From: Bacteroidales bacterium
GTDB lineage: Bacteria; Bacteroidota; Bacteroidia; Bacteroidales; UBA12077
Reading direction: 5' to 3'
Assembly: GCA_030637515.1 (NCBI GenBank)
Contig: DAOWGM010000062.1
Location: 1 to 64,000, forward strand
DNA length: 64,000 bases
The position numbers and the translations under genes are program-made. The notes beneath the pieces were generated by a model, which was not told the origin of the DNA, searched no databases, and saw nothing but the letters and a program-made list of their open reading frames with translations. Below are positions 50,759 through 59,561 of the stretch, one piece after another (the stretch's first letter is position 1; every line of letters starts with the position of its first letter).

Positions 50759-51472
50759 ATGCCAAAAATGAATCGATACTTATTATTTTTTATCCTAATT
50801 GTTATTTCCGGTATTTATCTGCAAGGCAAACAATTATCTGGAAATTTATATCAGGAAAAAATTAGTTTTAACGATAGTATTCCTGTTTCTTTTCAGGAAA
50901 AATTAACTGATTCATGCGGAATCCCTTTACCCGCAATAAATATAGCATTAAACGGATTTAGCGATTTTAAAAGCCAAAACCTATTAAGGAACGATTCATT
51001 ACTTACAATTATCGACTTTAGTGCTTCATCAATTGAAAAAAGATTTTTTATTTTGGACTTAAAAAATCAAAAAATTCTTAAACAAACTTTGGTGGCGCAC
51101 GGGAAAAATTCAGGGCTTGATATAGCTGATTCATTTTCAAATAAGAAACATTCAAAAAAGAGTAGCTTGGGTTTTTATGTAACGGGCGAAATTTACGAAG
51201 GGAAACACGGATTTTCATTAAGGTTGGATGGAATGAGTAAAGACCTAAATGATAATGCCCGTAAAAGAGCCATTGTTATTCACGGTGCAGCTTATGTTAA
51301 CCAGAAGTTTATAAAAGAGAATGGCAGAATTGGTCGAAGCTTTGGTTGTCCCGCTTTATCTTACGATGAGGCTGATGAAATAATTGATTTAATAAAAGAA
51401 GGTTCCTGCTTATTTATTTATCATCCAACATTAATTCCTATATCTCAAGAAGATTTGGGAAAACTGCCTTAA
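50759..51472 (+). CDS. Murein L,D-transpeptidase catalytic domain protein (YkuD_2 type)
   Basis: A 237-aa exported protein with an N-terminal hydrophobic signal or anchor (YLLFFILIVISGIYLQG). The catalytic domain shows IVIHGAAYV with His 175 and RSFGCPALS with Cys 197, the H...S-x-GCP arrangement of the YkuD_2 family. Such enzymes are thought to act on 3-3 cross-links or lipoprotein attachment in peptidoglycan. The ATG at 50768 is an equally possible start. The 3' end overlaps the next, convergent L,D-transpeptidase gene by 35 nt. Confidence 0.87.
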   Translation: MPKMNRYLLFFILIVISGIYLQGKQLSGNLYQEKISFNDSIPVSFQEKLTDSCGIPLPAINIALNGFSDFKSQNLLRNDSLLTIIDFSASSIEKRFFILDLKNQKILKQTLVAHGKNSGLDIADSFSNKKHSKKSSLGFYVTGEIYEGKHGFSLRLDGMSKDLNDNARKRAIVIHGAAYVNQKFIKENGRIGRSFGCPALSYDEADEIIDLIKEGSCLFIYHPTLIPISQEDLGKLP

Positions 51473-53105
51473 TTTCTTTTTCATCAAGATTGTAGATATC
51501 GTTAAAAAATACCATGTCTGAGTTTTCTGTACCAGAACAAGTAATATATTGAATGTGTATTTTCACCTTTTCAGAAAGATCAATTACTTGACGTTTTTTC
51601 TCAGATATAAGTTTTTTGATATTCTTTTTGTCATCATTATAATTGTTTGTTAGGTACTGAGCAAGTTTGTCAGGATTTTCAAGACGGATGCAGCCGTGCG
51701 AATAAGTTCTTTTTTCGTTCTTAAACAAACGTTTTGATGGAGTGTCGTGAAGATAAACACTAAAATTGTTAGGGAAGATAAATTTTACTTGTCCCAGAGC
51801 ATTAGATCTGCTGTTAATCTGTCTTAGCCAGTATTTATTTCCTAATGGATCTCTATCATTCCAATTAATAGTTGAGTCATCGACAACTTCTTCGTAATTG
51901 TTTATAACGAAAAAACCGTTTCTCTTAAGATAAGTAGAGTCTCTTCGAATTTTGTAAATCATTTCATTTTTAACAATACTTCGTGGTACTGTCCAGTATG
52001 GATTTGCAATTACTTTTTCAATATTGCTTGAAAGAACTGGAGTTGGAGTACCTTTTTTACCTACAATAACATTAAAAGATTCTTTATTCTCATTTGATTC
52101 TACTACATGTAACTTATATTCAGGAATATTTACGAACAGATAGTTTTCTCCGGAATTTTGCAGATTTCTAAGTCTGTTTATATTTAAACATGCCTGAAAG
52201 TATTTGAATTTTAACAGCGAAACTATTACTTCATGTGTTGGAGTATTAAGAATAGAATCTTTAGGTAAATTATAATCGGATTCTAATTTAGAAAGAACCT
52301 CTGATTTTAGGTTTGTTGAATCGAAAACTGGTGATTTGCTAATTCCAGAATAGTAAAGGCTTTTTGCAAGCAACTTATCATCAATAAAAGCTGGAGTTGT
52401 ATATTTAACCGAGTAGTGCAAATCAATAAAATAAGGGAGCGAATTCAATAAATTTTGATGATGAACAAGTTTAGGCTGAATCGATAAAATATCTTCTCGT
52501 AAATTATCTTGATTGATAGCCTTGTTAAGAATCTCTGGTAAAGCTTCTAAATCTGATGTAAAAGCTAATGAAGAATCTTTATCAATTATTCCATGCTTTA
52601 AATAAAGCATAAACTTTAAAGTTGCATATGTTGTACTTAATTCAAGATCAACTTTTTGATTTGAATTTTCTAAATCCATATTTAAAACATGAATTCTTTC
52701 AGAATTGAAATAATCATATGGGAATCCAAAATAGGCTGCGCTGTCTATAAGATTTATAAGAGTTGAGAATTGAGGATTAGTTGAATAATTATTAATCCAA
52801 ACAGGCTTGTATTCTCTGGCTTCGTAAAACTTAACTAAAAGTTCATTTAACTGAGAATGAATACTGAACAATGTGTCAGTAGTGCTATTTTCTATTGATT
52901 TTACCTGATTTTCAACTAAATAATTGAATTGAAATGAATCTGCAAGAACAAGTTTAGTATTAATTCGGGTAGTAGGATTTTTATAACTACTTAATAAAAT
53001 AAAAAACACAAATAAAGAAAGATACTTTACAATTGAAATAAAAAACCTTCTTTTTTTGCTCTCAGAAGGATAATCTAATTCAAATATGGCGTCGTCGTTT
53101 AACAT
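51438..53105 (-). CDS. L,D-transpeptidase, YcbB/LdtD-like
   Basis: A 555-aa envelope enzyme with an N-terminal membrane helix (FISIVKYLSLFVFFILLSSY), a long helical scaffold region, and a YkuD catalytic domain in the C-terminal third: SVYLHDTPSKRLF, then TYSHGCIRLENP with His 470 and Cys 472. The layout matches the YcbB (LdtD) group that forms 3-3 cross-links, though no clear peptidoglycan-binding PG_binding_1 repeat was recognised. It starts in a long divergent intergenic region that carries a perfect palindrome. Its end overlaps the other L,D-transpeptidase gene. Confidence 0.9.
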   Translation of the reverse strand: MLNDDAIFELDYPSESKKRRFFISIVKYLSLFVFFILLSSYKNPTTRINTKLVLADSFQFNYLVENQVKSIENSTTDTLFSIHSQLNELLVKFYEAREYKPVWINNYSTNPQFSTLINLIDSAAYFGFPYDYFNSERIHVLNMDLENSNQKVDLELSTTYATLKFMLYLKHGIIDKDSSLAFTSDLEALPEILNKAINQDNLREDILSIQPKLVHHQNLLNSLPYFIDLHYSVKYTTPAFIDDKLLAKSLYYSGISKSPVFDSTNLKSEVLSKLESDYNLPKDSILNTPTHEVIVSLLKFKYFQACLNINRLRNLQNSGENYLFVNIPEYKLHVVESNENKESFNVIVGKKGTPTPVLSSNIEKVIANPYWTVPRSIVKNEMIYKIRRDSTYLKRNGFFVINNYEEVVDDSTINWNDRDPLGNKYWLRQINSRSNALGQVKFIFPNNFSVYLHDTPSKRLFKNEKRTYSHGCIRLENPDKLAQYLTNNYNDDKKNIKKLISEKKRQVIDLSEKVKIHIQYITCSGTENSDMVFFNDIYNLDEKEIKAVFPNLLEI

Positions 53106-53434: not shown

Positions 53435-54721
53435 ATGAATAAAAATATTCTGAAGTTAATTTTAATTGCAGTTCTTATAATATTCATTTTTAATCAATGT
53501 TCAACCTCATATAAAGCTAAAAAGCATCCTGAAGAAATTGTTCATGGTTATGTAGCTCCCGGATTCGAAGAGGTAAAAGAAGAATTCATTCGAAACTTTG
53601 TAAAAAGAAAAGAAAATGGATCAGCAATTTCAATTTATTATAAAGGCGAAAAGGTTGTTGATCTATGGGGCGGATACAGAGATGTTTTAACAAAATCGAA
53701 ATGGGAAGAGGATACAAAAGTAATCGTATTCTCAACAACAAAAGGTCTTGCTGCATTATGTTTGGCAATGGCGCATTCAAATGGTTGGCTGGATTATAAC
53801 GAAAAGGTTTCGACATATTGGTCTGAGTTTGCTCAGAATGGTAAAGAAAATATTACTGTTCGTCAATTGTTAGCACATGAAGCTGGTTTATGTCTTGTCG
53901 ATGAGGTTTTTGAAATTGATGATTTGGCAGATTTTGATTTTATTTCCACACTCATGGCACGTCAGAAACCTTTATGGGAGCCAGGAGAACAGCATGGTTA
54001 CCATTTATCAACCATGGGAATGTATATGAATGAACTTATGCGTAGAGTTGATCCAAAAGGAAGAAGTATCGGAGTGTTTTTTGATGAGGAATTGGCGAAA
54101 CCTTTTGATTTAGATTTTTATATAGGTTTGCCAGATTCGATTTCAGATGAAGAATTGTCAAAAGTATATTACCCTTCAATAGGACAGTTTATTTTTAATA
54201 TGAATAAAATGCCCGAAAAAATGAGAAAAGATTTCAGGAACAAAAAATCAATTTTATATCAGTCATTTAAAATCCCTGAAAAATTTAGTCCAAATAGTCG
54301 AGCAACCCAAAGGATTGAAATGCCTTCAGGCAACGGAATTGGTGATGCCAGATCAATAGCTAAGATTTATAGCATTTTTGCAGAAGGAGGAACAGAACTT
54401 GGTTTTAAGAAGGAGACTTACGAACTGTTGAAACAACCTGCGCAAATTCCTCCGGCTGGAGCATTTGATATTATTATGGGTTTAAATACTTATTTCGCTT
54501 ATGGATTTTTAAAACCCGGACCAGATTTACTATACGGAAATAATCAAAGTGTATTTGGCACTCCCGGTGCTGGAGGTTCATTTGGTTTTGCCGATCCTAA
54601 AAACGAAATAGGTTATGCATATGTAATGTCCAAAATGGGACTTTATTTAGTTAATGATCCACGTGAGGTAGCATTGCGAGAAGCAATGTATCGATGTGTA
54701 GAACGAATTGAAAATGAATAA
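53435..54721 (+). CDS. Beta-lactamase-fold serine hydrolase lipoprotein (EstB-like)
   Basis: A 428-aa class C beta-lactamase-family (PF00144) protein with a lipoprotein signal (FIFNQC, Cys about 22). The S-x-x-K catalytic motif is in VFSTTKGLAALCLAMAH, the second region GYHLSTMGMYMNEL fits the Y-x-S/N position, and the C-terminal GTPGAGGSFGFADPK is the usual H/KTG-like strand replacement of EstB-type esterases. It is likely a periplasmic esterase or peptidase, not a true beta-lactamase. It overlaps the next gene, so both proteins probably work together. Confidence 0.85.
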   Translation: MNKNILKLILIAVLIIFIFNQCSTSYKAKKHPEEIVHGYVAPGFEEVKEEFIRNFVKRKENGSAISIYYKGEKVVDLWGGYRDVLTKSKWEEDTKVIVFSTTKGLAALCLAMAHSNGWLDYNEKVSTYWSEFAQNGKENITVRQLLAHEAGLCLVDEVFEIDDLADFDFISTLMARQKPLWEPGEQHGYHLSTMGMYMNELMRRVDPKGRSIGVFFDEELAKPFDLDFYIGLPDSISDEELSKVYYPSIGQFIFNMNKMPEKMRKDFRNKKSILYQSFKIPEKFSPNSRATQRIEMPSGNGIGDARSIAKIYSIFAEGGTELGFKKETYELLKQPAQIPPAGAFDIIMGLNTYFAYGFLKPGPDLLYGNNQSVFGTPGAGGSFGFADPKNEIGYAYVMSKMGLYLVNDPREVALREAMYRCVERIENE

Positions 54722-55643
54722 TAAAGAAATAATAAGTTGGTTACTTAAAGGAGATGTCTCAATACAATATCAGGTTTACAGAGACTTGTTGGGAGAAGAA
54801 CGCAAAGATCTTAAAAGCAGGATTGAATTCGAGGGTTGGGGAAAACAATTTCTTTTGCTTCGTAATGAAGACGGTCATTGGGGTAAAAGTTTTTATCAAC
54901 CTAAATGGACATCAACGCATTACACTTTACTTGATTTAAAAAATCTTGAAATTTCAAATCAATGCAAATCCATTAAGGAAACAATCCAGATTATTCTCAC
55001 GCAAAATAAGGTGGAAGATGGAGGAATTCATCCGATTGGTTCCACTAAAAATAGTGATTTGTGTATTAATGGTATGGCTTTGAACTATTGTTCTTATTTT
55101 AAGGCAAATGAAAAAGATATAGAATCAATTATTGATTTTATAATATCCCACCAAATGAAAGATGGTGGCTTTAATTGCCGCATTAACAGAACAGGAGCAA
55201 AACACAGCTCATTACATACCACTATTTCTGTATTGGAAGGTATCCATGAATATAAAATTAATGGTTACACTTATCGGATTGAAGAATTAACAAAAGCAGA
55301 ACAAGAATCACAGGAATTTGTATTACAACATTGCTTATTTAAATCCGATAAAACCGGGAATATCATTGATAATAGGTTTTTGAGAATTCCATATCCTACA
55401 CGTTGGCGATACGATATTTTAAGAGCATTGGACTATTTTCAGTTTGCAAGTGTTAATTATGATAAAAGAATGCAGGATGCAATTGATGTTCTATTAAAAA
55501 AGAGAAATAAAGAGGATACTTGGAATTTGAATGCAAATTATCCTGGGAATGTTCATTTTCAAATGGAAAAGGTAGGTAAACCAAGTAGATGGAATACATT
55601 ACGTGCATTAAGAGTGCTGAAGCATTTTCAGGTAAGAAATTAA
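54714..55643 (+). CDS. Alpha/alpha-toroid (prenyltransferase/squalene-cyclase-like repeat) protein, function unknown
   Basis: A 309-aa soluble protein, no signal peptide. It has QW/GG-type repeats as seen in terpenoid-cyclase and protein prenyltransferase toroids: NEDGHWGKSFYQPKWTSTHYTLLDL, VEDGGIHPIGS...CINGMALNYCSYF, MKDGGFNCRINRTGAKHSSLHTT and DTWNLNANYPGNVHFQME. No DxDD cyclase motif is seen, so synthase activity is doubtful. I chose the ATG at 54714 over a TTG at 54708. It overlaps the serine hydrolase stop by 8 nt. The function is not known. Confidence 0.65.
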   Translation: MNNKEIISWLLKGDVSIQYQVYRDLLGEERKDLKSRIEFEGWGKQFLLLRNEDGHWGKSFYQPKWTSTHYTLLDLKNLEISNQCKSIKETIQIILTQNKVEDGGIHPIGSTKNSDLCINGMALNYCSYFKANEKDIESIIDFIISHQMKDGGFNCRINRTGAKHSSLHTTISVLEGIHEYKINGYTYRIEELTKAEQESQEFVLQHCLFKSDKTGNIIDNRFLRIPYPTRWRYDILRALDYFQFASVNYDKRMQDAIDVLLKKRNKEDTWNLNANYPGNVHFQMEKVGKPSRWNTLRALRVLKHFQVRN

Positions 55644-55687: not shown

Positions 55688-58006
55688 ATGAAAAACAGAA
55701 CAAAATACATCATCATCTTTATATTAACATTTATTCTTTATGGGAATACTCTTTTTCATGAATATGCATTGGATGATGCACTTGTAATATCAGAAAACGA
55801 ATATACTTTAAGCGGATTTGAAGGAATTGATGACTTGTTGACCCATGAGTTTTTTAGTGGTTTTTTTGATGAAAAGAATAAAAGTTTAGTAGCAGGCGGA
55901 CGTTATCGTCCTTTATCAATGGTTACATTTGCTATTGAGTGGCAAATAATTATGGGGTCTCCTTACAAAGGGATTGATAAAGTGAGTTTAGAGAAAAGGA
56001 TGAATCGTAATGCAAATCCTGATTTTATTCTGCCTTCTCAAAAACTTCTGAAGGATTTATTAAAAACATTGCAAACGGATGATAGAAATCTTAGAAAAAA
56101 GCTGCAAGAAAGTATTTTAGAAGATGCAAATATTTTACAAGATTATGAGAAAAGGATTGTTCTTTCAAATTTGCGAAAAATGCATTCAAAAAGAAAACTA
56201 CTGCTCTTTATTAGTCATTTTCTGAATGTGTTATTATTTGCCATAACAGCTTTTATCTTGTTAATTTTACTGGAGTTTTTACTGCCAGCTTATAATTCAG
56301 ATAAATGGTATTTATCTATACCGTTTGTCGCTGTACTAATTTTTCTTGTTCATCCTATACATACAGAAGTAGTTGCAAACATTAAAGGTCGTGATGAAAT
56401 ATTATCCTTATTGGGAGCTTTATCAGCTGCTTTATTTTCTTTAAAATATATCCAAAGTAAAAAGAGTTCATATTTAATATTAAGTTTTATATTCTTTTTA
56501 ATTGCCTTGTTTTCAAAAGAAGTTGCAATAACTTTTCTTGCAATTATTCCTCTATCTATTTATTTTTTTAGAGAAAAGCTTGGAGCAAAAAATGTAATTA
56601 TTTCAATTATTCCGATAGTTGTAGCATCTGCATTTTATTTTTATGTTCGTGGTCAGGTCATCGGAGGACTATCTTTTGAAACAGGAACAGAGTTAATGAA
56701 TAATTCATTTTTGGGAATGTCTGTTTCTGAAAAATTTGCTACTGTTTTTTACACCTTATTGATGTATTTAAAGTTGCTGATAATCCCACATCCCTTAACG
56801 TACGATTATTATCCTTATCATATTTCGATTATGACATGGAGTAATATTTGGTCGTTGATTTCTTTAGTGGTTTATATATTTCTTGGGGTTTATGCACTTT
56901 TAGGTCTAAAGAAAAAGAGAATTGTATCATTCGGGATTTTCTTTTTTTTGATAGCATTATCGCCCATGTCTAATATTTTATTTCCTATTGGAGTATTTAT
57001 GAACGAACGATTTGTTTTTATTGCTTCAATTGGAATAATAATAATTCTGGCATATTTTATTTCCAATAAATTACCGACCAGAATAAAAAATCCTATTGTA
57101 ATACAATATGTTTTATTTGCCGTTCTGGTTATTTATTCCGTAAAAACTATTCATAGAAATCAGGTTTGGAAAAATGATTTTACCTTATTTACAAATGATG
57201 TGAAAATATCTGTAAATAGTGCAAAAAGTAACACTGCAGCGGGTGGTATTCTTATTGAAGAAGCCACAAAGCCAGGGAATCAAAATGTTAAAAAGGAATA
57301 TCTTGAAAAAGCGATAACATATTTGCAAAAGGCAATTGATATTCATCCAACATATAACGATGCGCTTTTACTTATGGGTAATGCTCAATGGGAATACTAC
57401 GAAAGTCTTGATAGTACATTTAAATACTACGATAGAATTCTGGAACGTGTACCCTTATATGATATAGTTTATAGGAATATTTTTGAAACCAGAATAAATG
57501 AAGTCTTTGAAGAGGAAAATAGAGCCGAAGAAAACTTAAGAATTTTACATAAGCTTAAGAAATATAATCCAAATCACTTTAGCATTAACTATTTGCTTGG
57601 TCGTATATATGGACGTTATGCAAATGATTTAGAAAAATCAAAAGAATATTTGGAAAAAGCAGCAAAAATAGATCCAAAAAATATTACGGTTTTTAAAGAT
57701 CTAGGTGTAGTATACGGTATAACAAAAGATTATAAAAAGTCGGCAGCAGCTTTGTTAAAAGCTACTGAACTTGATCCTGACGATCCAGTACTAAAAATAA
57801 ACCTAATTATGACTTATGCTAATTTAAATGATTTGCAAAATGCATTAGTTATAATGGATGAGGTTTATGAGATGGAAATTAAACCTGCAGATGCAAATAT
57901 TCTTATTAATCTTGGAACATTATTTCGGAATATGGGGAATGAAGAAAAATATCAACAATGTATAAATAAAGCTCAACAACTAAATCCTGAATTATTTAAG
58001 AAATGA
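55688..58006 (+). CDS. TMTC-like GT-C glycosyltransferase with C-terminal TPR repeats
   Basis: A 772-aa membrane protein. About ten to eleven membrane segments fill residues 5-500. The first periplasmic loop holds HEYALDDAL, an acidic pair at the position of the GT-C catalytic motif, and GGRYRPLSMVTFAIEW, which is the hallmark of TMTC-type O-mannosyltransferases. HPIHTEVVANIKGRDEILS and FSKEVAITFLAI are further TMTC-like motifs. From about residue 525 to the end there are TPR repeats. GT-C enzymes use polyprenyl-phosphate sugars as donors. The next gene, overlapping by 4 nt, encodes a DPM-like GT2 that could make this donor. The acceptor is unknown; secreted proteins are the best guess. Confidence 0.82.
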   Translation: MKNRTKYIIIFILTFILYGNTLFHEYALDDALVISENEYTLSGFEGIDDLLTHEFFSGFFDEKNKSLVAGGRYRPLSMVTFAIEWQIIMGSPYKGIDKVSLEKRMNRNANPDFILPSQKLLKDLLKTLQTDDRNLRKKLQESILEDANILQDYEKRIVLSNLRKMHSKRKLLLFISHFLNVLLFAITAFILLILLEFLLPAYNSDKWYLSIPFVAVLIFLVHPIHTEVVANIKGRDEILSLLGALSAALFSLKYIQSKKSSYLILSFIFFLIALFSKEVAITFLAIIPLSIYFFREKLGAKNVIISIIPIVVASAFYFYVRGQVIGGLSFETGTELMNNSFLGMSVSEKFATVFYTLLMYLKLLIIPHPLTYDYYPYHISIMTWSNIWSLISLVVYIFLGVYALLGLKKKRIVSFGIFFFLIALSPMSNILFPIGVFMNERFVFIASIGIIIILAYFISNKLPTRIKNPIVIQYVLFAVLVIYSVKTIHRNQVWKNDFTLFTNDVKISVNSAKSNTAAGGILIEEATKPGNQNVKKEYLEKAITYLQKAIDIHPTYNDALLLMGNAQWEYYESLDSTFKYYDRILERVPLYDIVYRNIFETRINEVFEEENRAEENLRILHKLKKYNPNHFSINYLLGRIYGRYANDLEKSKEYLEKAAKIDPKNITVFKDLGVVYGITKDYKKSAAALLKATELDPDDPVLKINLIMTYANLNDLQNALVIMDEVYEMEIKPADANILINLGTLFRNMGNEEKYQQCINKAQQLNPELFKK

Positions 58007-58755
58007 TTAACAATAAAAAAATAGTGGTTGTACTTCCTGCCTTTAATGCAGAAAAAACACTGGAGAAAACGTATTCAGAGATTCCTTTTGATATTGTTGA
58101 TGATGTAATTTTAGTCGATGATAAAAGTAATGATAAGACAGTTCAAAAGGCTAAAGATTTAGGCATTACAAAGATCTTCCTTCATGAAGAAAATCAAGGA
58201 TATGGGGCAAATCAAAAAACGTGTTACAACGAAGCACTAAATTTAGATGCCGATATTGTTGTCATGCTTCATCCTGATTATCAATATACTCCAAAGCTAA
58301 TTCCTTCGATGGCTTCACTTATTGCAGATGATGTTTATCCTGTTGTTCTTGGTTCTCGAATTTTAGGAAAAGGCGCTTTAAAAGGTGGTATGCCTTTATA
58401 TAAATATGTTTTTAATAGGATATTGACTTTTATTCAGAATATACTTATAGGAGCTAAGCTTTCAGAATATCATACCGGTTTTAGAGCATATAGTCGCGAA
58501 GTTTTGATGAAAATAAATTACAAAGCAAATTCAGACAACTTTCTTTTCGACAATCAGGTTTTAGCTCAAATCCATTATGCCGGATTTGAAATAGCAGAAA
58601 TTAATTGTCCAACAAAATATACCAATGATTCATCTTCAATTAACTTGAATAATAGTATTGTATACGGCTTAGGAGTTTTAAAAACTTCATTTCAATACTT
58701 CCTTCAAAAAATAGGTTTGGCAAAATTCCCATTTTTAGAAACTTTAGAAAATTAA
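58003..58755 (+). CDS. GT2, polyprenyl/dolichyl-phosphate sugar synthase-like
   Basis: A 250-aa GT-A glycosyltransferase. VVVLPAFNAEKTLEKTY, DDVILVDDKSNDKTVQKA, HEENQGYGANQKTCYNEAL and IVVMLHPDYQYTPKLI (metal motif altered to HPD, as in DPM/DPG synthases) match the dolichyl-phosphate sugar synthase class. GSRILGKGALKGGMPLYKY and YHTGFRAYSREVL follow. It has no strong C-terminal membrane helices, so it is probably peripheral. The start overlaps the GT-C gene stop by 4 nt (ATGA), which is strong evidence that the two are made together. Confidence 0.88.
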   Translation: MINNKKIVVVLPAFNAEKTLEKTYSEIPFDIVDDVILVDDKSNDKTVQKAKDLGITKIFLHEENQGYGANQKTCYNEALNLDADIVVMLHPDYQYTPKLIPSMASLIADDVYPVVLGSRILGKGALKGGMPLYKYVFNRILTFIQNILIGAKLSEYHTGFRAYSREVLMKINYKANSDNFLFDNQVLAQIHYAGFEIAEINCPTKYTNDSSSINLNNSIVYGLGVLKTSFQYFLQKIGLAKFPFLETLEN

Positions 58756-58799: not shown

Positions 58800-59561
58800 A
58801 TGAAGTACATTATTTTATGTTTTTTAGTTGGATTAATTTCTTTGACAGGCTTTTCACAGAAGCTAAACAAATTAGGGCAAATTGTGATTGATGAATTACC
58901 TAAAATGCCTGATCATAGGATTGAAAAAGTTAAAGGTGAATACAAAGTTGTAACAGATTTATTTGTTTTTGAAGGAAACACTTATTATAGCTTGCCTGAA
59001 GGTTTTATTACAAGCCTTGAAGTAGTTGACGATAAAAAGGATTATATAAAACATTATAATTCTAAAGGTAAACTGTTAGCAACTATTCTTTCAGATAGAA
59101 TAATTAATTTAAAAATTTCTAAGAGTGGTAATAAGTTGGCTTTTTTTAATACTGAAAATATTATTTTACTAAATCTACAGAATTATAAAATTGATACACT
59201 TAAAGGATCATTTATATATTCATTTACCAACGTGGGTGATTTTATTTATTATAACTCAGAAAATAAGTACATATATTATAAGGGAAACAGGATTTTAAGT
59301 GAAACTTACCCGAATCAATTCATTGAATATAAAGGAAATATTTTCATTGTTACTAAAACAGCAATTTATGAATTAGATGGACTCAATCTATTTCCTAAAT
59401 ATGTGTTTAAAGGTAAATTCTTCGATGCTAAAATTATTAATGGTGAATTTTATTTCGTAGATAAAATTGAAAAAAGAAAATCGGAAGGATTTACATTGTA
59501 TAAAACTTCCGATTTTAATAAAATAGTAATAGTCGATAAGTTGGATGATCTAAACAGATAG
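58800..59561 (+). CDS. Exported beta-rich protein of unknown function
   Basis: A 253-aa protein with a signal peptide (cleavage likely at GFSQ). The remainder alternates short strands in a way that suggests a beta-propeller-like fold (KISKSGNKLAFFNTENIILLNL, FTNVGDFIYYNSENKYIYYKG, YELDGLNLFPKYVFKG). No family is recognised. It follows the GT pair on the same strand after 44 nt and may be in the same unit. It ends one base before the convergent DDAH gene. Confidence 0.55.
   Translation: MKYIILCFLVGLISLTGFSQKLNKLGQIVIDELPKMPDHRIEKVKGEYKVVTDLFVFEGNTYYSLPEGFITSLEVVDDKKDYIKHYNSKGKLLATILSDRIINLKISKSGNKLAFFNTENIILLNLQNYKIDTLKGSFIYSFTNVGDFIYYNSENKYIYYKGNRILSETYPNQFIEYKGNIFIVTKTAIYELDGLNLFPKYVFKGKFFDAKIINGEFYFVDKIEKRKSEGFTLYKTSDFNKIVIVDKLDDLNR

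Follow-up and report, generated by a model that had tools for sequence, protein, structure and literature searches.

The stretch of DNA analysed here (the window) comprises positions 1 to 64,000 of contig DAOWGM010000062.1 of a Bacteroidales bacterium (assembly GCA_030637515.1) and encodes a membrane protein resembling the TMTC glycosyltransferases of animals (which we take to be CAZy family GT105) and, immediately after it, a family 2 glycosyltransferase (GT2) resembling dolichol-phosphate mannose (DPM) synthase. The locus combines a GT-C fold, TMTC motifs, a tetratricopeptide repeat (TPR) tail and a DPM-synthase-like GT2, and the two genes are linked across genomes. A first-pass annotation, made from the letters of the window, had placed two open reading frames at 55688-58755 with the second beginning 4 nt inside the first, and both were recovered on the plus strand, joined by an ATGA (Table 1). 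The same overlap of a TMTC-like gene and a GT2 gene recurs at the loci L084, L085, L086, L095 and L096 and in the congeners G448 and G450. The window belongs to contig C32 of a 4.1-Mb assembly of 185 contigs, 91% complete and 7.7% contaminated. This contig is not regarded as a contaminant because congeners G449 and G450 retain the block and the genes around it, with gene-by-gene identities of 48-94%.

The TMTC-like protein

A Kyte-Doolittle scan of the TMTC-like protein gave 10 hydrophobic segments and our reading of the predicted structure gave about 11-12 membrane-length helices, in keeping with the roughly ten membrane segments first annotated. The AlphaFold model, built from a 40-protein alignment (the window protein and 39 relatives), has a mean pLDDT of 88.3. 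Residues 1-524 of the model matched yeast STT3 (8age_A; Z 19.1, root mean square deviation (rmsd) 4.9, 342 residues) and a further STT3-type structure (8pn9_A; Z 18.4), and residues 1-510 matched Pmt4 (9i5k_A; Z 16.7, rmsd 5.1, 356 residues); set against 14, the typical best Z for helical models with no clear match, the STT3 score lies above and the Pmt4 score not far above. The 50 best Foldseek rows for the model are TPR or other repeat proteins, and the GT-C matches surface in a second look with VIA; ArnT was not in the VIA structure list, which was counted as no evidence against. The tail matches TPR domains structurally, e.g. that of OGT (Z 19.8), and Pfam places TPR repeats from about residue 530 (TPR_8, E 9.1e-18). 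All Pfam matches of the window protein, which are to TPR-type and a few other models only, lie outside the GT-C part. Among the aligned relatives, 29/40 match PF08409 (TMTC_DUF1736; best E 1.7e-8) and 22/40 match PMT_2, each at E ≤ 0.05.

The acidic pair in HEYALDDAL (D29/D30) and the GGRYRPLS motif (residues 70-77) that the first-pass annotation pointed out are both present. Residues D29, D30, G70, R72, Y73, R74, P75, K277, E278, D373 and R441 are invariant in 40/40 aligned proteins, and the motif observation was counted as beyond chance because the first seven of these do not vary; R235 (36/40), E440 (39/40) and P426 (14/40) are less strict. When the TMTC motifs in Table 4 of PMC7801869 were aligned to the window protein by eye, 13/22 listed residues were identical (D29 D30; Y73 R74 P75; R235; K277 E278 T282; D373; P426; E440 R441), and motifs M2-M7 accounted for 11/20 (M2 3/7, M3 1/2, M4 3/4, M5 1/2, M6 1/2, M7 2/3). 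The TMTC architecture proposed at the outset finds support in the GT-C fold (STT3/Pmt4), the TMTC motifs (M1 in full, M2-M7 in part) and the TPR tail, and prediction of the protein as a GT-C enzyme of TMTC-like class with a TPR tail is well supported by sequence and model.

The window subfamily is distinguished by an 81-residue insert that follows motif M2 and precedes the second membrane helix. Of the 40 aligned rows, 5 (the window protein and L084-L087) carry it in full, as do L064, L065 and L066 of an earlier 32-protein set, in which L022 and L030 carry it in part; L065 and L087 are the same contig. The insert is absent from most relatives examined, needs two changes on a quick tree and, searched alone, matched nothing in the PDB below E 0.22. 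Should the loop face outwards as it does in TMTCs, the insert would lie near the active side.

The GT2 and its genomic associations

The GT2 matches the Pfam domain Glycos_transf_2 (E 1.2e-19), and its nearest solved sequence is a dolichol-phosphate mannose synthase (DPMS), at E 4.3e-9 as a single sequence and 1.1e-11 by profile. Its model (pLDDT 87.3) superposes on DPMS 5mlz with a Z of 22.5 and rmsd of 2.6 over 221 residues, followed in the fold list by ArnC (Z 21.5) and GPGS (Z 21.4), scores so near that the fold alone cannot separate lipid from soluble acceptors. The highest 19-residue hydrophobicity mean is 1.32, and no segment exceeds the cut-off of 1.5. The dolichyl-phosphate sugar synthase layout first read from the sequence agrees with both profile and fold, for which DPMS is closest, and the GT2 is probably a polyprenyl-phosphate-sugar synthase. 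Distant GT2 relatives (38-42% identity) in G234, G292, G363, G415 and G378 lie in frames of 488-538 aa and are possibly fused.

Co-occurrence was counted in an order sample of 149 genomes and a phylum sample of 247 genomes, the window's genome included. In the order sample a TMTC-like match (E ≤ 1e-3) was present in 74 genomes, the GT2 (E ≤ 1e-20) in 69 and both in 53; where the TMTC-like match is strong (E ≤ 1e-60), 32/37 genomes carry the GT2, vs 37/112 of the others (Fisher p about 1e-8). Of the 69 genomes that bear the GT2, 68 have a single copy, the exception being G096. The phylum sample gave a TMTC-like match (E ≤ 1e-20) in 10/247, the GT2 (E ≤ 1e-40) in 45/247 and both in 8, the GT2 thus occurring in 8/10 TMTC-like genomes vs 37/237 others (Fisher p 2e-5). 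The GT2 is present elsewhere in 44 of 50 genomes in which the fetched TMTC-like locus has none beside it; these genomes come from 50 of the 64 loci without an adjacent GT2, some of which are cut by contig ends.

The GT2 lies beside the TMTC-like gene on the same strand in 16/80 fetched loci (13 downstream and 3 upstream), or in 12/60 when only loci flanked by 900 bp or more on each side are considered. On a quick tree of 93 proteins, which leaves out open reading frames below 550 aa, adjacency needs at least nine changes over 87 labelled rows (24 adjacent); the count omits rows at or near a contig end (L105, L111, L155, L158 and L136) as well as L098, whose contig is that of L069. The TMTC-like proteins encoded directly before the GT2 in L083, L164 and L199 are highly divergent (21-24% identity) and stand apart on the tree. 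Co-occurrence of the two genes is therefore strong and their adjacency patchy. The coupled unit first proposed stands insofar as the genes co-occur and adjacency recurs on several tree branches, but a fixed two-gene unit was rejected, given that 64/80 TMTC-like loci show no adjacent GT2 and that the GT2 pairs with other GT-C-like proteins elsewhere.

The order-sample match list shows at least seven separate TMTC-like places in each of G069, G085 and G145; an insertless TMTC-like protein gives two match pieces in this list, and paralogues are hence counted as separate places. Three TMTC-like genes stand in tandem in L092 (1795-7833), and convergent, opposite-strand TMTC-like genes lie beside the GT2 in L115 and L123. 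TMTC-like proteins were also seen in records titled Delongbacteria (L112) and Proteobacteria (L159); that of L112 clusters on the tree with the protein of a Bacteroidales isolate from a series of similar name, which suggests transfer or misbinning. Flavilitoribacter nigricans (L149) is a named isolate that carries a homologue.

Large polytopic neighbours of the GT2, defined as immediate, on the same strand, at least 400 aa long and with at least seven hydrophobic segments, were found in 30 of the 69 loci from order-sample genomes with the GT2 (window included) vs 3/387 control genes, from which the GT2's own neighbours and genes below 150 aa were excluded. These 30 comprise 9 TMTC-like proteins (two only 21-24% identical), 11 members of one PMT_2/ArnT-like group and 10 others, and the TMTC-like neighbours in L067 and L083 fall under the cut with six and five segments, respectively. 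Of those tested among the 10 others, L074 and L078 matched PMT_2 (L078 below cut-off) and L082 did not. One ArnT-like neighbour tested matched the NCBIfam ArnT model at E 3.1e-24, below the model cut-off, and neighbours of this group are often accompanied by a PAP2 phosphatase gene. In L074 the PMT_2 gene that follows the GT2 lies next to a PagL-like gene of the lipid A deacylase family (E 2.1e-12), an arrangement that speaks for a connection of this non-TMTC partner with lipid A. The GT2 is followed by a PGA_cap capsule-synthesis-type gene in pair locus L112 and, in L075, by a gene that is presumably GtrA-like, recognised by sequence alone. In L087 the pair is immediately preceded by a gene for mannose-6-phosphate isomerase (PF20511, E 1e-13), which may be a pointer to mannose as the sugar, the single one and from one locus. 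A conserved downstream partner of the GT2 was considered and rejected, as the three neighbours of ~320 aa tested belong to two families (nitronate-monooxygenase-like in L095 and L097, methyltransferase in L083). The window's own genome has two further PMT_2-like frames close together (G000:C87:49246-53354), one of them above cut-off. Because the GT2 is almost always single copy and stands beside other GT-C-like proteins in other genomes, while TMTC-like genes are multiple, it is better described as a shared donor synthase with exchangeable users, the TMTC-like protein being one of them.

The exported protein encoded downstream of the pair matches nothing in Pfam or NCBIfam at E ≤ 0.1. Its gene lies beside the GT2 in L085, L086 and the congeners G447, G448, G449, G450 and G452, and blastp (E ≤ 1e-8) detected it in none of the remaining 78 of the 80 loci; the L084 contig ends inside the GT2. 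The role of substrate or accessory first proposed for it is at most a possibility, its conservation beside the pair being confined to close relatives. Upstream of the pair, window positions 54708-55643 encode an alpha-toroid protein with a TTG start and a weak match to Prenyltrans just under the cut-off (26.2 vs 26.5 bits), whose gene overlaps the preceding beta-lactamase-like gene; it was rejected as part of the unit because in L086 the beta-lactamase-like gene directly precedes the TMTC-like gene. Two adjacent, tail-overlapping genes at 50759-51472 and 51438-53105 presumably encode L,D-transpeptidase/YkuD proteins, judged by a sequence motif of that family. Five of 10 congeners have both genes of the pair and five have no close homologue of either (GT2 matches of 20-29% identity only), three of the latter being only 70-78% complete. 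A clean gain or loss of the pair within the genus was rejected, since the 15-20 kb around the M3 peptidase gene in G446, G097 and G444 lack the other window genes sought, which is weak evidence that the site in pair-lacking congeners is not a clean empty one.

Table 1. Features of the TMTC-like/GT2 locus, in window coordinates
Feature	Coordinates	Strand	Basis
TMTC-like GT-C glycosyltransferase with C-terminal TPR domain (predicted), 772 aa	55688..58006	+	Open reading frame list, Pfam, alignment, structure model
Codons D29-D30, acidic pair within the first external loop (TMTC motif M1)	55772..55777	+	Invariant in 40/40; motif per PMC7801869 Table 4
Codons G70-P75 (GGRYRP), counterpart of TMTC motif M2 SHKSYRP	55895..55912	+	Y73/R74/P75 as in TMTC, invariant in 40/40
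81-residue insert, residues 93-173, loop after motif M2; four predicted helices	55964..56206	+	Alignments and model
TPR domain, about residues 512-772	57221..58003	+	Pfam and structure model
ATGA overlap (4 nt, stop/start) linking both genes	58003..58006	+	Sequence
GT2, DPM-synthase-like, probable polyprenyl-phosphate-sugar synthase, 250 aa	58003..58755	+	Pfam, profile, fold
Exported protein, 253 aa, with a signal peptide judged by eye; belongs to the block as its third gene only in close relatives	58800..59561	+	

Proposed pathway and alternatives

The GT2, on the cytoplasmic face, would take a single sugar from its nucleotide-activated form and attach it to polyprenyl phosphate, which we assume to be undecaprenyl phosphate, and the charged polyprenyl-phosphate sugar would then be flipped across the membrane. 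The TMTC-like GT-C protein would take the sugar in its external cavity, where D29/D30 is the probable catalytic site, and transfer it to periplasmic or secreted proteins recruited by the TPR tail; in other genomes the GT2 may also supply other GT-C enzymes. We consider this whole model, a donor synthase together with a TMTC-like protein glycosyltransferase, to be somewhat probable. Its enzyme activity, donor identity, protein acceptor and sidedness are what we infer, and mannose is the favoured guess for the sugar.

Several results weigh against the model. The window protein has no Pfam match to TMTC_DUF1736 or PMT_2 at E ≤ 0.1, and a GT-C-only profile matched no PDB sequence at E ≤ 10; the link to GT-C and TMTC proteins is therefore drawn from the fold, the motifs and the relatives' Pfam matches. 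Only YRP is kept of motif M2 (SHKSYRP), and the human H-K-S, modelled as mannose contacts in the available text of PMC7801869, reads GGR here; the transferred sugar may therefore differ from mannose. In the GT2, the DAD of DPM synthase reads H90-P91-D92, with the second D kept and HPD invariant in 15/15, and the soluble-acceptor enzyme GPGS (Z 21.4) comes within about 1 Z of DPMS. No GtrA-type flippase was found at E ≤ 0.001 in the window's own genome (91% complete). The GT2 is lacking in 6/50 of the TMTC genomes whose locus shows no adjacent copy, in 5/37 of those with a strong match in the order sample and in 2/10 in the phylum sample, and the co-occurrence tests ignore shared ancestry. A protein as the acceptor is itself a supposition.

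The choice of acceptor is where the chief alternative departs: the TMTC-like protein may instead, in the manner of ArnT, use as its acceptor a lipid such as lipid A or a glycan such as a polysaccharide, with the TPR tail merely scaffolding an assembly complex. The ArnT-like GT-C neighbours of the GT2 in other genomes, often with a PAP2 gene, suggest that the GT2 product can feed non-TMTC users, and the PagL-like gene near PMT_2 and GT2 in L074 and the PGA_cap-type gene in L112 also speak for this alternative. However, only 1/10 Pfam-tested neighbours (that of L112) is of capsule or lipid A type, nine of the ten being from close-TMTC-like loci, and TMTC motifs combined with an extended TPR tail, as in the window protein, are the arrangement of protein O-mannosylation enzymes in the available text of PMC7801869; we judge transfer to a lipid or glycan to be possible and rather unlikely. 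We give little credence to the two genes being mere neighbours in no common pathway, the GT2 serving other GT-C enzymes only. The 64/80 TMTC-like loci with no adjacent GT2 (some cut by a contig end), the 16/69 GT2-bearing order-sample genomes with no TMTC-like match at E ≤ 1e-3 and another PMT_2 protein on C87 of the window's own genome would all fit such independence, whereas strong co-occurrence in two samples, the 44/50 in a third, same-strand adjacency in several tree branches and the ATGA overlaps argue for a connection.

It is very improbable that the pair is this lineage's version of the missing core transferase of Bacteroidota general O-glycosylation. In the available text of a 2025 review (PMC12871550), the oligosaccharyltransferase, core flippase and ligase of Bacteroidota O-glycosylation are still undiscovered and the common reducing-end sugar of the O-glycan is a hexose, given as mannose, both of which would suit the pair. 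The same text describes the general system as widespread and proposes transfer of a preassembled core glycan, whereas the GT2 would charge a single sugar and the genes of the pair are found in 45/247 (GT2) and 10/247 (TMTC-like) genomes of the phylum sample, a rarity that argues against the pair being the general system.

Starting from the preferred model of a donor synthase and a protein glycosyltransferase, a wider proposal can be framed, which we regard as speculative and quite unlikely. A family of TPR-bearing GT-C enzymes (at least seven in some genomes), each choosing secreted proteins by its TPR tail and here also by the insert, would draw on a common single-copy polyprenyl-phosphate-mannose synthase; it would be the bacterial equivalent of the TMTC pathway of animals, perhaps even its ancestral form, and would represent the missing first step in protein O-glycosylation for these lineages. 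With a probable donor synthase and a transferase in one pair, and related genomes without both, the locus is a small system for the study of sugar, acceptor and substrate choice by the TPR tail. The pair also bears on the undiscovered protein O-glycosylation transferases of Bacteroidota, and its distribution speaks against the general one.

Comparison with known systems

DPMS 5mlz, which we take to be the Pyrococcus enzyme, resembles the window GT2 in its GT2 catalytic domain; the window GT2 differs in being 250 aa long with no hydrophobic segment above the cut-off and in having HPD for DAD. ArnC is a GT2 polyprenyl-phosphate-sugar synthase that works with the GT-C transferase ArnT, a lipid A-modifying enzyme not known to have a TPR tail. 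The pairing of a GT2 with a GT-C protein and the ArnC fold match (Z 21.5) liken the window genes to this system, and the window GT-C differs by its TPR tail. The general O-glycosylation system of Bacteroidota (lfg locus), as far as the available text of PMC12871550 describes it, shares with the pair its phylum and, should the pair use mannose, the common first sugar, and its transferase is still undiscovered; that system is widespread, whereas the GT2 and TMTC-like counts in the phylum sample fall short of phylum-wide presence.

According to the available text of PMC7801869, TMTCs have been studied in animals, where these GT-C/TPR enzymes are placed in the protein O-mannosylation pathway, and bacterial relatives are not well characterised. 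Prokaryotic TMTC homologues are already in print there, uncharacterised, as essentially full-length proteins with TPR segments in many, typically poorly characterised prokaryotes; neither a GT2 partner nor the insert is mentioned in that text for such homologues, e.g. AMJ42_05695. Among the literature matches listed (TMTC, TPR GT-C and polyprenyl phosphate mannose synthase; Bacteroidetes), judged by these listings, no account of TMTC-like/GT2 pairing was found. The window protein is like animal TMTC1-4 (PF08409) in having a GT-C domain followed by TPR repeats, with DD, YRP, KE..T, D(W/Y) and ER in the same order, whereas TMTC1-4 have HKS in M2 and DW where the window protein has GGR and DY. 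Unlike TMTC1-4, the window protein is bacterial, carries an 81-residue helical insert in the first loop, and is encoded by a gene coupled to a GT2.

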